This document shows, one piece after another, positions 28,279-31,736 of a stretch of 31,736 bases of DNA. This stretch comes from a virus. The DNA lies in the IMG/VR virus record IMGVR_UViG_3300030106_004933, positions 1 to 31,736 of that record. One strand, 5' to 3'. A program made the translations under genes and the position numbers. Position 1 is the stretch's first letter. Each line of letters begins with the position of its first letter. Below the pieces are notes generated by a model, which was given only the letters and a program-made list of their open reading frames with translations, did not search any database and was not told the DNA's origin.

Positions 28279-28489
28279 GCGCGATAGCTGGGTCAGCCGC
28301 GGCGTATGGCAAAGACGCGCGGCAAAGCGGTGGTCTCGGCGTGAGCTGGCAGAGCGCAGCGGCGTGGCTGAAGGCACGATTCGAAATATCGAGTACGGCT
28401 TATGTTACACGGGCATCGACACGCTTGAAGCGGTGTTGCGTGAGCTTGGGTGCGAGTTGGTGATTAAGGAGGTGGATTATGATTTTTGA
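28271..28489 (+). CDS. XRE-type helix-turn-helix protein
   Basis: A 72-residue protein that overlaps the exonuclease stop by 8 bases. The HTH is clear: SRRELAERSGVAEGTIRNIEYG (about 20-41, read by eye), followed by a helix DTLEAVLRELGCELVI typical of short XRE regulators. The N-terminus is Arg/Lys/Trp-rich. It is the second such regulator in the window; it may control the downstream early genes or act on host promoters. The open frame extends back to 27938, but that part is shadow. Confidence 0.75.
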   Translation: MVKRDSWVSRGVWQRRAAKRWSRRELAERSGVAEGTIRNIEYGLCYTGIDTLEAVLRELGCELVIKEVDYDF

Positions 28490-28763
28490 GAAAACAGAGG
28501 GCACAAACTTGCCGTTGCCTGATCAGCTCGACGAGGTGCGGGACAAGATTAAGGTGCTGAAGAAGCGCGAGAAGGAGATTGCCGAGCAAGTGAAACAGCG
28601 GGGCGGCGAGAAAGGCGCGTTTGTCGAAGCGATCGTGCAGACGGTGCCGTCTAAGCGGCTGAACACTGAAAAGGTCAAAGCCGAGCTGAGCGACCGCATT
28701 TCGGAATTCTACGATTTCGGCGAAGTCACCAAAGTGATTTTGCGTGAGATTGACCCCGAGTAA
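28479..28763 (+). CDS. small coiled-coil phage protein
   Basis: A 94-residue protein with a strong AAGGAGG before its ATG and an 11-base overlap with the HTH gene. The first half is a charged coiled coil (DEVRDKIKVLKKREKEIAEQ, about 19-38). The second half (VPSKRLNTEKVKAELSDRI) resembles small phage proteins with a 'RLDTKxLKAEL' motif found in early operons (memory). No function is known. It is soluble. Confidence 0.62.
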   Translation: MIFEKTEGTNLPLPDQLDEVRDKIKVLKKREKEIAEQVKQRGGEKGAFVEAIVQTVPSKRLNTEKVKAELSDRISEFYDFGEVTKVILREIDPE

Positions 28764-29124
28764 TTTGCGGATTTGCCCAGTGTGCTTTCGGCGCACCAAG
28801 GGCTTTGGATTTAGCCGGCGGCTTGTTGGCAAGATTGGCGCAGATGTTTGGTTTTGCTCGATGCGTTGTCGAGACTATTGGGAGAGGCACGGGATGACTG
28901 ATTGGTTACCGCTTGAGAATGAGATGCTGTTCGAATGTGGCAAGTCGGGTGGCGAATACCTGGAAAGCGTCGGCAAGACTGACCTCGCTACGCTAACCAA
29001 GGACGAATGGCTCGTGTTCTTGCAAAGTGTCGTCGGGCGGCTGCACGAAGTGCGGCACGATTATGACCGAAAAATTGAGGCGGAGTTCTGGGACGATCCG
29101 TTTGGGTTGCCGCCATTACGTTAG
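28744..29124 (+). CDS. DUF6511-like zinc-binding protein
   Basis: The frame allows 126 residues from GTG 28744; TTG 28750 or TTG 28764, the last directly after the previous stop, are equally possible because no clear Shine-Dalgarno is seen. CPVC and WFCSMRC form a zinc ribbon near the N-terminus. The C-terminal half, GGEYLESVGKTDLATLTKDE then WLVFLQSVVGRL, matches the phage family DUF6511 as I recall it. Function unknown. Confidence 0.7.
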   Translation: MRLTPSNLRICPVCFRRTKGFGFSRRLVGKIGADVWFCSMRCRDYWERHGMTDWLPLENEMLFECGKSGGEYLESVGKTDLATLTKDEWLVFLQSVVGRLHEVRHDYDRKIEAEFWDDPFGLPPLR

Positions 29125-29137
29125 GGAGCCATGCAAA

Positions 29138-29491
29138 ATGTTTCGAATGTTGAATGCATTTTTTAAAAACCGACAAAAATCGCACAGCACACAGGGCATC
29201 ACTTGCCCGTCACCCAATTATCCAAGCTACATTTTTATGCGAGATAAGAATGGCAACGAGTTGCTGGTAGAAAACAATTGCACTCATTTGCCAAAATACG
29301 GACCACGCATACACCCCGAACTTATCTACGAAAAGCGCAAAAAAAGATGGGGCGTGGATGTGCAAGGAAGCTTGAAAAGCGTGGGGCTCACAAGAAAACA
29401 AGCGCGCGCTTTGGTTACCAAGCGCGGAACTTGGCAAAACACTTTGAAGCACGCCATCAAGGGCAACGACCAATTTAAAACCGGCCGCTGA
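29138..29491 (+). CDS. hypothetical basic protein before the methyltransferase
   Basis: The ATG at 29138 with AGGGAG about 9 bases upstream is chosen; the open frame back to 29027 reads as shadow of the DUF6511-like gene. The 117-residue product is basic (KTGR end) and AT-richer than its neighbours. It has SPNYPSYIFMRDKNGNELL and GLTRKQARALVTKRGTWQ segments. No family is recognised. Different base composition suggests recent arrival. It ends two bases before the ATG of the overprinted ORF. Confidence 0.55.
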   Translation: MFRMLNAFFKNRQKSHSTQGITCPSPNYPSYIFMRDKNGNELLVENNCTHLPKYGPRIHPELIYEKRKKRWGVDVQGSLKSVGLTRKQARALVTKRGTWQNTLKHAIKGNDQFKTGR

Positions 29492-29492
29492 A

Positions 29493-30425
29493 ATGAGCGT
29501 AAAAAAAAACTCAGAGTGCTCGACCTATTCTCAGGCATCGGAGGATTCAGCCTTGGGCTTGAATCAACCGGGGCTTTTCAAACAGTTGCCTTCTGCGAGC
29601 AAGACAAGTTTTGCCAAGCCGTGCTTAGAAAGCACTGGCCCAACGTCCCAATCTACGACGATGTCCGCACCATCCCAACAGATAGACTTGGAAGAGTTGA
29701 CATCATCGCGGGCGGCTTCCCCTGCCAACCTTGGTCCCAAGCCGGGCAGCAGCGAGGCGCGGAAGATGACCGCGATCTCTGGCCGGAAATGGCTCGCCTT
29801 GTTGGAGAGCTACGGCCTAAATATCTCATTGCGGAGAACGTGCGCGGATTTGTTAACCAACGCATGGGGCTCGAGCGCAGCCTTTCTGATTTGGAAGGCA
29901 TCGGCTACCAAGCCGTCCCATTTATTATTCCAGCTTGCAGTGTCGATGCCCCGCACAGACGGGACAGGGTTTGGATTGTGGCTAACGCCGTTGGTAAGCG
30001 ACAGCGAGAAAAGAGGCATCCCAAAAGTAGGCGGCGGATTAGCGGGGCAAGTTCAGCTATGGCCGACGCCTCAAGCATGGGACGGCAAGCGGGGGGCGCG
30101 CAAGCCGGATGGCAAGAGAGGGATGGCGTTATCGGATTTAAGCACGCCACAGATGTGGCCGACGGTAGCGGCGCGCGAGCACGAGGGCGCGAACAGCGAA
30201 GAGCATCTAGCGAAAGCGAGAGGGCATCACGACCAGTTGCCCAACGCGGTCAAAATGGCGGGTCACAAAGGTGGGCAACTGAACCCGACGTGGGTCGAGT
30301 GGCTCATGGGATATCCCGAAGGGTGGACCGACTTAGGGCCTTGGGAAACGCCGTCGTCCCACAAGTCGTCGCAGAAATCGGGCGGGCCATCCTCGCAGCG
30401 GAGGGCCAAGCGCGATGAGCATTGA
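29493..30425 (+). CDS. 310-residue ORF overprinted on the cytosine methyltransferase
   Basis: It starts at the ATG 2 bases after the previous stop and stays open over the full methyltransferase gene in the -1 relative frame. The product has LALLESYGLNISLRRTCADL, LIWKASATKPSHLLFQLA, SMPRTDGTGFGLWLTP, WPTPQAWDGKRG, LAKARGHHDQLPNAV and LNPTWVEWLMGYPEGWTDL. I recall many database phage proteins with exactly this series (WxTP blocks and LNPxWVEWLMGxPxGWT). In its second half this frame looks more protein-like than the methyltransferase frame. Openness alone is weak evidence at this GC content. Its relation to the methyltransferase may be set by slippage at the A9 run. Confidence 0.5.
   Translation: MSVKKNSECSTYSQASEDSALGLNQPGLFKQLPSASKTSFAKPCLESTGPTSQSTTMSAPSQQIDLEELTSSRAASPANLGPKPGSSEARKMTAISGRKWLALLESYGLNISLRRTCADLLTNAWGSSAAFLIWKASATKPSHLLFQLAVSMPRTDGTGFGLWLTPLVSDSEKRGIPKVGGGLAGQVQLWPTPQAWDGKRGARKPDGKRGMALSDLSTPQMWPTVAAREHEGANSEEHLAKARGHHDQLPNAVKMAGHKGGQLNPTWVEWLMGYPEGWTDLGPWETPSSHKSSQKSGGPSSQRRAKRDEH
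29516..30418 (+). CDS. dcm: DNA (cytosine-5) methyltransferase
   Basis: Transfers methyl groups from S-adenosylmethionine to cytosine C5. Motif I is LDLFSGIGGFSLGLE (2-16), motif IV GGFPCQPWS with catalytic C70, motif VI ENV (107-109), motif VIII APHRRDRVWIVA (145-156), and motifs IX-X RLRALGNAVVPQVV (272-285). The target-recognition region (about 160-255) is Arg/Ser-rich and low in complexity. GTG 29516 is the first start in frame and has no clear Shine-Dalgarno. The upstream bases in this frame encode KKKLR, the usual N-terminus, but lack an in-frame ATG. It probably protects phage DNA from host restriction. Confidence 0.88.
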   Translation: MLDLFSGIGGFSLGLESTGAFQTVAFCEQDKFCQAVLRKHWPNVPIYDDVRTIPTDRLGRVDIIAGGFPCQPWSQAGQQRGAEDDRDLWPEMARLVGELRPKYLIAENVRGFVNQRMGLERSLSDLEGIGYQAVPFIIPACSVDAPHRRDRVWIVANAVGKRQREKRHPKSRRRISGASSAMADASSMGRQAGGAQAGWQERDGVIGFKHATDVADGSGARARGREQRRASSESERASRPVAQRGQNGGSQRWATEPDVGRVAHGISRRVDRLRALGNAVVPQVVAEIGRAILAAEGQAR

Positions 30426-31736
30426 ACAGATGGCGCGCGAGCGTTTTGGCGAGCCCAACATGCGGATGTCGCGCGACGGTGAGCTGCGGTTCGGTGGCAA
30501 GGGCTCAAAAAGCGTTAACCTCGAAACCGGCGAGTGGTTTGATTTTGAGAACTGGAGCGGCGGCGTTCTCGAAAACAAGGAGCCAGAGCCGGCAGCCAAT
30601 TGTGTTCGCATGATCGTCAAGAAATACGACTACGTCGATCCCGATGGTGAGCTGCGATACCAGGTGTGCCGCTACATGCCGAAGGACTTTCGCCCGCGTG
30701 TGCCACTCGGTGCCGGGTGGCGCGAGGGCCGCGGCTGCATGGATGGCGTAGAGCGGCTGCCGTACCATCTGATTGAAATTTTGAAATCTGATTACGTGAT
30801 TGTGGTCGAGGGCGAGAAGGATGTCGATGCGCTGCGAGCGGCAGGGTTTGTGGCGACGACGAAATGCGGCGGGGCGGCGAAGACCTGGGAGCCAAGTGCG
30901 CTTTCGTATTTCCGCGATCGCGATGTGTATGTGATACCTGACAACGATACGGCTGGCATACGCGGGGCAGAGAAAACGTGTGCGGCGCTTGTCGGTGTGG
31001 CGCGCAGCGTGCGGTATGCGCCGTTGTGCGCCGACATGGCGCCCAGGGCGGATGTCTCAGATTGGTTGGCGGCGGGCGGCGGCGATGTCGTTGCGGCGTG
31101 CAAGGCGTTCGGAGAGTTCGATGCCGAAGAGGTAGACGCCGACTTTGTGTATCAGACGCTTGACGCCGATACCATCACGCCGGTGCTGAGCGCCGACGAT
31201 TATGTCGAGGGCTTGCTGGTTGCGGGTGCGATGAGCGTTGTCTATGGGCCCTCAAATGTTGGTAAGACTTTCTTTGCAGCGGACCTTGCCATGCATGTAG
31301 CGGCGGGGTGGGAGTGGCGCGGCTGCGAGGTAAGCCAGATGCCGGTGTTGTACGTGGCCGCGGAAGGTGCGTTTGGCATTAGGAATAGGGTGGCGGCGTT
31401 TCGGCGGCACTACGACATGAGCGAGACGCTGCCGTTTCATGTCATTCCGGTGGCCGTCAACTTGCTGTCGGATGACGAGGCGGTTGAGCGGCTCATCAAC
31501 ACGGCCAAGGTGAAGGGTGCCGGCATGATCGTGCTGGATACGCTGTCGCGTGTGATTGCCGGCGGCAACGAAAACGCGCCTGACGATATGGGGCAGCTCA
31601 TTGGCAATTGTGACCGAATTAGGGCAGAGGCGCGCGCGCATGTCATGCTCGTGCATCACACGGGCAAGGATGAGGCGCGCGGAGCGCGCGGGCATAGCTC
31701 GCTGCGTGCGGCGACCGACACCGAGATTGAGGTCAG
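30415..31736 (+). CDS. primase-helicase with TOPRIM and RepA-like ATPase domains (partial)
   Basis: The ATG at 30415 overlaps the methyltransferase stop, and the frame stays open to the window end (440 codons seen). TOPRIM residues are VEGEKD (131-136) and PDNDTAG (175-181). The ATPase follows with Walker A GPSNVGKT (278-285), Walker B MIVLDT (371-376) and HHTGKDEARGARGHSS (414-429), as in RepA/AAA_25 helicases. No N-terminal zinc domain is visible. It would prime and unwind phage DNA during replication. The C-terminus is outside the window. Confidence 0.9.
   Translation, partial: MSIEQMARERFGEPNMRMSRDGELRFGGKGSKSVNLETGEWFDFENWSGGVLENKEPEPAANCVRMIVKKYDYVDPDGELRYQVCRYMPKDFRPRVPLGAGWREGRGCMDGVERLPYHLIEILKSDYVIVVEGEKDVDALRAAGFVATTKCGGAAKTWEPSALSYFRDRDVYVIPDNDTAGIRGAEKTCAALVGVARSVRYAPLCADMAPRADVSDWLAAGGGDVVAACKAFGEFDAEEVDADFVYQTLDADTITPVLSADDYVEGLLVAGAMSVVYGPSNVGKTFFAADLAMHVAAGWEWRGCEVSQMPVLYVAAEGAFGIRNRVAAFRRHYDMSETLPFHVIPVAVNLLSDDEAVERLINTAKVKGAGMIVLDTLSRVIAGGNENAPDDMGQLIGNCDRIRAEARAHVMLVHHTGKDEARGARGHSSLRAATDTEIEV

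Follow-up and report, generated by a model that had tools for sequence, protein, structure and literature searches.

The small subunit of the cytosine methyltransferase M.EcoHK31I is coded inside the gene for the large subunit, in another reading frame. M.EcoHK31I (YGGCCR) is a split C5-cytosine methyltransferase in which the large chain holds motifs I-VIII and X, along with a predicted recognition domain, and the small chain holds motif IX (PMC3404938). The catalytic and recognition parts of M.AquI are also carried on separate chains (PMC3404938). Among phages of Paenibacillus larvae, Shelly (gp55/gp56) and Lily (gp62/gp63) have overlapping genes annotated as a methyltransferase and an "internal gene." Slippage is described from a different set of genes: runs of nine A's or T's cause efficient slippage by bacterial RNA polymerase, and slippage of this kind on a run of nine A/T allows Thermus thermophilus dnaX to make two products from one gene (PMC5009743). 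Overlapping split methyltransferases and slippage on nine A's are each known already; a search of the available literature for overlapping phage methyltransferase subunits, for slippage in one, or for a split methyltransferase combined with a nine-A run found no account of them.

The window, by which we mean the whole stretch of DNA analyzed (31,736 nucleotides; positions 1 to 31,736 of IMG/VR virus record IMGVR_UViG_3300030106_004933), comes from a marine phage and carries phage genes for terminase, head-tail adaptor, major head protein, tail, integrase, Cas4-type exonuclease, and primase/helicase. Judging from sequence comparisons, we consider it quite likely that one locus in the window codes for a two-subunit C5-cytosine DNA methyltransferase in two frames of the same DNA, here called alpha and beta, and that alpha is reached through a -1 slip in a run of nine A's (A9), the slip being most likely that of RNA polymerase. 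Alpha resembles the large chain of M.EcoHK31I, by the description of that enzyme, in having motifs I-VIII and X and lacking IX, and the simplest reading would be one enzyme in two chains, as in that system. Unlike in M.EcoHK31I, the beta frame spans the whole length of the locus, its first codon is the only ATG, and A9 presumably gives access to alpha. In addition, whereas the large subunit of M.EcoHK31I has the predicted recognition domain (PMC3404938), constraint and predicted disorder at this locus would put target recognition in beta. A division of catalysis and recognition between chains is shared with M.AquI, but there motifs IX and X are both on the small chain, unlike here (PMC3404938). 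The Paenibacillus phages show the same overlap and frame relation between alpha and beta but differ in that alpha has its own ATG, beta has its own internal start, and there is no A9. Finally, slippage in T. thermophilus dnaX truncates a protein late in the gene, whereas at this locus it would determine which of two long overlapping proteins is made, within a few codons of their start.

If this is correct, two long and fully overlapping conserved proteins are packed into about 900 bases and share a start and a slippage site, which would make the locus an unusually compact example of recoding in a DNA phage and one open to clean tests. A function would be suggested for PHROG 1008, the family to which beta belongs, and many phage C5-methyltransferases now annotated as one protein may need an overlapped partner to be complete. 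Expression strategies could also be compared within one enzyme family.

A single ATG ahead of two open frames

The features of this locus lie on the plus strand. An upstream open reading frame (29027 to 29491), which is in the alpha frame, ends with a TGA at 29489 to 29491, and from there onward the alpha frame is open. The next ATG (29493 to 29495) begins one base after this stop, a spacing that makes reinitiation plausible, and similar stop/start overlaps are found in relatives (e.g., TTTTGATGGCTC in locus L212). It is the sole ATG near the methyltransferase start, and it lies in the +1 (beta) frame; a beta-frame ATG is present near the gene start in 16 of the 17 A9 loci described below. The codons from 29493 read ATG AGC GTA AAA AAA AAC TCA and contain the nine-A run (29501 to 29509, preceded by T at 29500) that is the proposed slippage site. 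Read straight, this ATG leads into the 310-residue beta frame (29493 to 30425), and the methyltransferase frame, at -1 relative to beta, is reached from it only by a -1 shift. The initial annotation had placed the ATG, the A's, and the two frames at these same positions and had read them in the same way, and no correction was needed.

A lone A9 is not unusual in a stretch of this size (one A9 or T9 seen in the window versus 0.34 expected), and the run is notable for its position and conservation rather than for its mere presence. Three more runs of eight A's are found in the window, at 472, 12146, and 12558. Rfam and tRNA searches of the window gave no match, and no promoter-like site was found in 28400 to 30600. 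Downstream, the primase/helicase gene (30415 to 31734) begins with an ATG that overlaps the alpha stop.

Alpha, a methyltransferase without motif IX

Alpha (29516 to 30418) matches PF00145 (4e-48, profile positions 3 to 176) and PHROG 363 (6.7e-80), and its folded part matches the M.HhaI fold (E value, 6e-12). Motifs I, IV, VI, and VIII of the catalytic domain are all present, including DLFSGIGGF (motif I, 29522 to 29548) and GGFPCQ with the catalytic cysteine (motif IV, 29711 to 29728). At the C terminus, motif X (RVDRLRALGNAVVP, 30320 to 30361) has invariant residues R269, R272, LGNA 276 to 279, V281, and P282, and LGNA.VP is invariant across 46 aligned alpha sequences. Alpha aligns with monomeric C5-methyltransferases only through motif VIII. 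AlphaFold2, given input alignments from which rows from annotated phage records were left out, modeled the catalytic part and motif X with confidence and predicted residues 160 to 267 to be mostly disordered. This target-recognition region (29993 to 30316; pLDDT, about 39 to 53) is unconserved in alpha, and in close relatives the +1 frame is under the stronger constraint there. By the alignment and the AlphaFold2 model, the alpha chain lacks a folded target-recognition domain and motif IX. Alpha would function as one part of a C5-methyltransferase and not as a complete monomer.

The only ATG, GTG, or TTG of the alpha frame before motif I is GTG 29516, raising the alternative that alpha starts there, or at a similarly weak codon in relatives, and that beta and the A run are unrelated to its expression. 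This codon is in frame, the same GTG is found in L010, and a TTG is found in L009 and L214; in principle, these GTG or TTG codons close to motif I could start a shortened alpha in the window and in all three of these relatives. However, GTG 29516 has no Shine-Dalgarno sequence, as the initial annotation had pointed out; it is preceded by CTCAGA, and it sits inside the first strand (KLRVLDLF). Moreover, 10 distinct A9 relatives have no ATG, GTG, or TTG at all in this position. We regard a weak-codon start as rather improbable, and the true alpha start is probably ATG 29493, followed by a -1 shift in the A run.

Beta as a conserved second gene

Beta matches PHROG 1008 (E value, 4e-34), as do all 48 of the 48 aligned beta sequences. 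PHROG 1008 is named "DNA methyltransferase," yet its members here match no Pfam methyltransferase domain, and beta itself had no match among Pfam, NCBIfam, or PDB sequences. The most conserved part of beta is a motif-IX-like segment (LNPTWVEWLMGYPEGWTDL, 30279 to 30335); written as LNPxWVEWLMGYPxGWTDL, this end of the protein resembles motif IX. The best local profile match of beta is to motif IX of monomeric C5-methyltransferases (LNPTWVEWLMGYPEGW), at a probability of 1.3% that is not significant. AlphaFold2 modeled beta alone poorly (mean pLDDT, 59.5), and the Foldseek matches of that poor model were discarded as noise. The conserved core (29661 to 30425) is a separate gene with an internal start in most relatives, and in Paenibacillus phage Shelly it is annotated as "g55 internal gene."

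The locus set was built from two scans of viral contigs (alpha and beta) and an A-run scan that accepted only runs of eight or more; the resulting 179 distinct alpha genes are interrelated and were partly chosen for similarity to the window. The +1 frame is open over more than 55% of the gene in 160 distinct complete overprinted loci, while monomeric C5-methyltransferases from genome contigs have only about 40 to 100 open +1 codons. When the alpha codons of the window were shuffled synonymously, the +1 frame was equally open in 6 of 1,000 trials. Values were likewise low in most of 27 loci, with L022 (286 of 1,000) as the exception. Over the first 48 codons of the A9 group, beta openness is not significant, with an expected value of 0.70 per locus. 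Chance openness was rejected for the gene as a whole but not for these first 48 codons, which are given no weight in the argument.

Divergence between relatives separates the two frames further. Pairwise comparison by alpha codon position, among internal-start relatives at 85 to 98% identity, gave 0.043/0.024/0.210 at positions 1/2/3 of the first 45 alpha codons, the pattern of a single alpha frame. From motif VIII to the EPDV block, the target-recognition region, the order was reversed (0.128/0.040/0.022), with alpha position 1, which is beta position 3, the most variable, pointing to beta as the constrained frame there. Both frames are constrained between those stretches and at the gene end, and in a group-wise repeat of the test the contrast was weaker at larger divergence. 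The disorder predicted for alpha by AlphaFold2 agrees with the region where beta is constrained.

A +1 frame that is noncoding and open merely as a by-product of alpha composition would be consistent with the near-expected openness seen over the first 48 codons of A9 loci. It is hardly credible for the gene as a whole, as openness exceeds that of synonymous shuffles in nearly every tested locus, the constraint pattern in the target-recognition region favors a coding beta, Shine-Dalgarno-like sequences precede internal beta ATGs, and Paenibacillus phage annotations list the beta frame as an internal gene. On these comparisons, the overprinted frame is a real gene of a conserved family, and its product is most likely the second subunit of the enzyme. 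The initial annotation had proposed that one start gives a protein pair that tunes methylation; the relatives support slippage to two products, but the second frame is no incidental overprint, and the role of slippage would be to supply both subunits instead of regulating methylation relative to some unrelated product.

The nine-A run in relatives

A run of exactly nine A's with a start codon in the beta frame is found at 17 distinct overprinted loci, including the window, and none has ten. In 10 of the 17, there is no alpha ATG, GTG, or TTG within 20 codons; in three others (L028, L190, and L204), an ATG in the alpha frame lies upstream. A9 is carried by all 10 of the overprinted loci that have no alpha start within 20 codons, and 0 of 42 comparable run-less loci lack such a start (P = 3e-7, a value that kinship makes look more independent than it is). 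Three of the 42 (L092, L097, and L099) have a beta ATG, no near alpha start, and no A run, with only a TTG 13 to 19 codons upstream. These are weak exceptions that may reflect another route to alpha or loss of alpha expression. The A run, the beta-frame start codon, and the missing alpha start thus recur together, as the initial annotation had asked of relatives, and most A9 loci have either no alpha start or an unlikely one, in line with its proposal that one start yields both proteins by slippage. Relatives with an intact alpha start and no run, which it had taken as counterevidence, do exist, but in other lineages with a different start design.

Nine A's are retained in each of three codon phases: GTA AAA AAA AAC in the window and L205, AGT/AAT AAA AAA AAA in L009, L010, and L214, and CAA AAA AAA ACT in L013 and others. 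In each phase, a -1 shift leads to a sensible alpha N terminus in which lysines precede the first strand. At least five changes of the A9 label fall on well-supported branches of the alpha tree, so the run and the frame relation have been acquired, lost, or relocated jointly on several occasions. Recombination around the start is likely.

Ten A's would put the ATG straight in the alpha frame, and homopolymers are commonly sites of phase variation (PMC3711429); the intact methyltransferase might then have ten A's, with the nine seen here reflecting a phase-variable switch or a homopolymer sequencing error. Against this, all 17 distinct loci of the overprinted A9 group, which come from many metagenomes and represent three sequence contexts, have a run of exactly nine, although the scan took any run of eight or more. 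Phase variation was rejected, since run length does not vary among these relatives. Loci without an alpha start and a run that is never ten argue strongly against either version, which we consider highly improbable, and make slippage the likely route to alpha.

Two loci outside the overprinted set also carry A runs. L195 has eleven A's and an ATG in the beta frame, and its beta closes at codon 47. In L219 (Listeria aquatica contig NZ_AOCG01000025.1), a fragment of a C5-methyltransferase gene carries A9, and an ATG lies in the other frame. That frame meets a stop immediately, and the methyltransferase gene is also interrupted after about 71 codons.

Transcriptional or ribosomal slippage

Straight translation from ATG 29493 would give beta, supplying target recognition and the motif-IX-like end. 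In some transcripts, RNA polymerase would add an A, moving the ribosome into the alpha frame to make MSVKKKLRVLDLFSG, and alpha, with motifs I-VIII and X, would supply catalysis and the cofactor part. One start would feed both subunits, and slippage would set their ratio. The comparisons establish that both frames are conserved and constrained, that run length and frame relation persist, and that an alpha start is absent in many A9 relatives. From these data we infer that slippage takes place and is transcriptional and that alpha and beta make up a single enzyme.

The same two subunits could also arise if alpha were made by ribosomal -1 frameshifting on A_AAA_AAA or A_AAA_AAC. An A_AAA_AAA heptamer stands in the beta-frame phase in every A9 locus, the window also has A_AAA_AAC, and both heptamers are recognized shift sites (PMC3711429). 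Seven A's would be enough for a heptamer, however, whereas nine are retained in every phase. No stem-loop recurred consistently downstream in 15 loci (z, -1.6 to +1.9), and no Shine-Dalgarno sequence is evident upstream in the window. We consider ribosomal frameshifting as the route to alpha doubtful, though the least improbable of the alternatives. The initial annotation had allowed for slippage by either machinery and had drawn attention to A_AAA_AAC; slippage by RNA polymerase fits better than the heptamer, because the run stays at nine A's across three phases and no stem-loop is conserved with it. At least eight to nine A's or T's at the frame change, kept in relatives, is one mark of programmed transcriptional slippage, and this is what the A9 loci have. 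By our judgment, transcriptional slippage is moderately favored over ribosomal frameshifting, and both kinds may contribute.

Three start designs

Starts among the relatives fall into three designs. In the first, found in most relatives, alpha has its own start and beta opens after a stop near codon 50, with an internal start; the internal beta ATG has a Shine-Dalgarno-like sequence in 49 of 92. In the second, the beta frame is already open at the gene start, and the two frames often have start codons next to each other (NTGAATGA; 19 of 42 versus 1 of 96 in the first design). The third, to which the window belongs, has a start codon in the beta frame followed by exactly nine A's, and no good alpha start. 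In the second and third designs, only 3 of 55 loci have an internal beta ATG accompanied by a Shine-Dalgarno-like sequence, versus the 49 of 92 above (P = 5e-10, which kinship causes to overstate independence), and 11 of these 55 loci lack internal start codons altogether. As internal beta starts are rare or missing in these two designs, beta begins at the gene start.

On balance, these patterns incline us toward a split enzyme made from one start codon with RNA-polymerase slippage on A9 as one of the three designs. We also lean toward the view that one ATG with A9, adjacent starts, and an internal beta start are interchangeable solutions, taken jointly with a subunit ratio set by slippage.

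Departures from the two-frame arrangement

Several loci break the frames elsewhere. In L012, L024, L089, and L109, alpha closes after about 70 to 76 codons and beta after about 120 to 130, from a mid-gene indel or an assembly error. In L005 (uncultured phage Deep1-GF2-KM23-C739, from 944 onward), the ATG frame departs from alpha near codon 40 and alpha continues at -1, a possible second slippage site or an assembly error. In Mycobacterium phage Llama (L003, genes 74/75) and similar mycobacteriophages, alpha is divided after motif VI between two ORFs in different frames, and a third, motif-IX-like frame (ANPVWIEWLMGFPPNWTDV) is still open.
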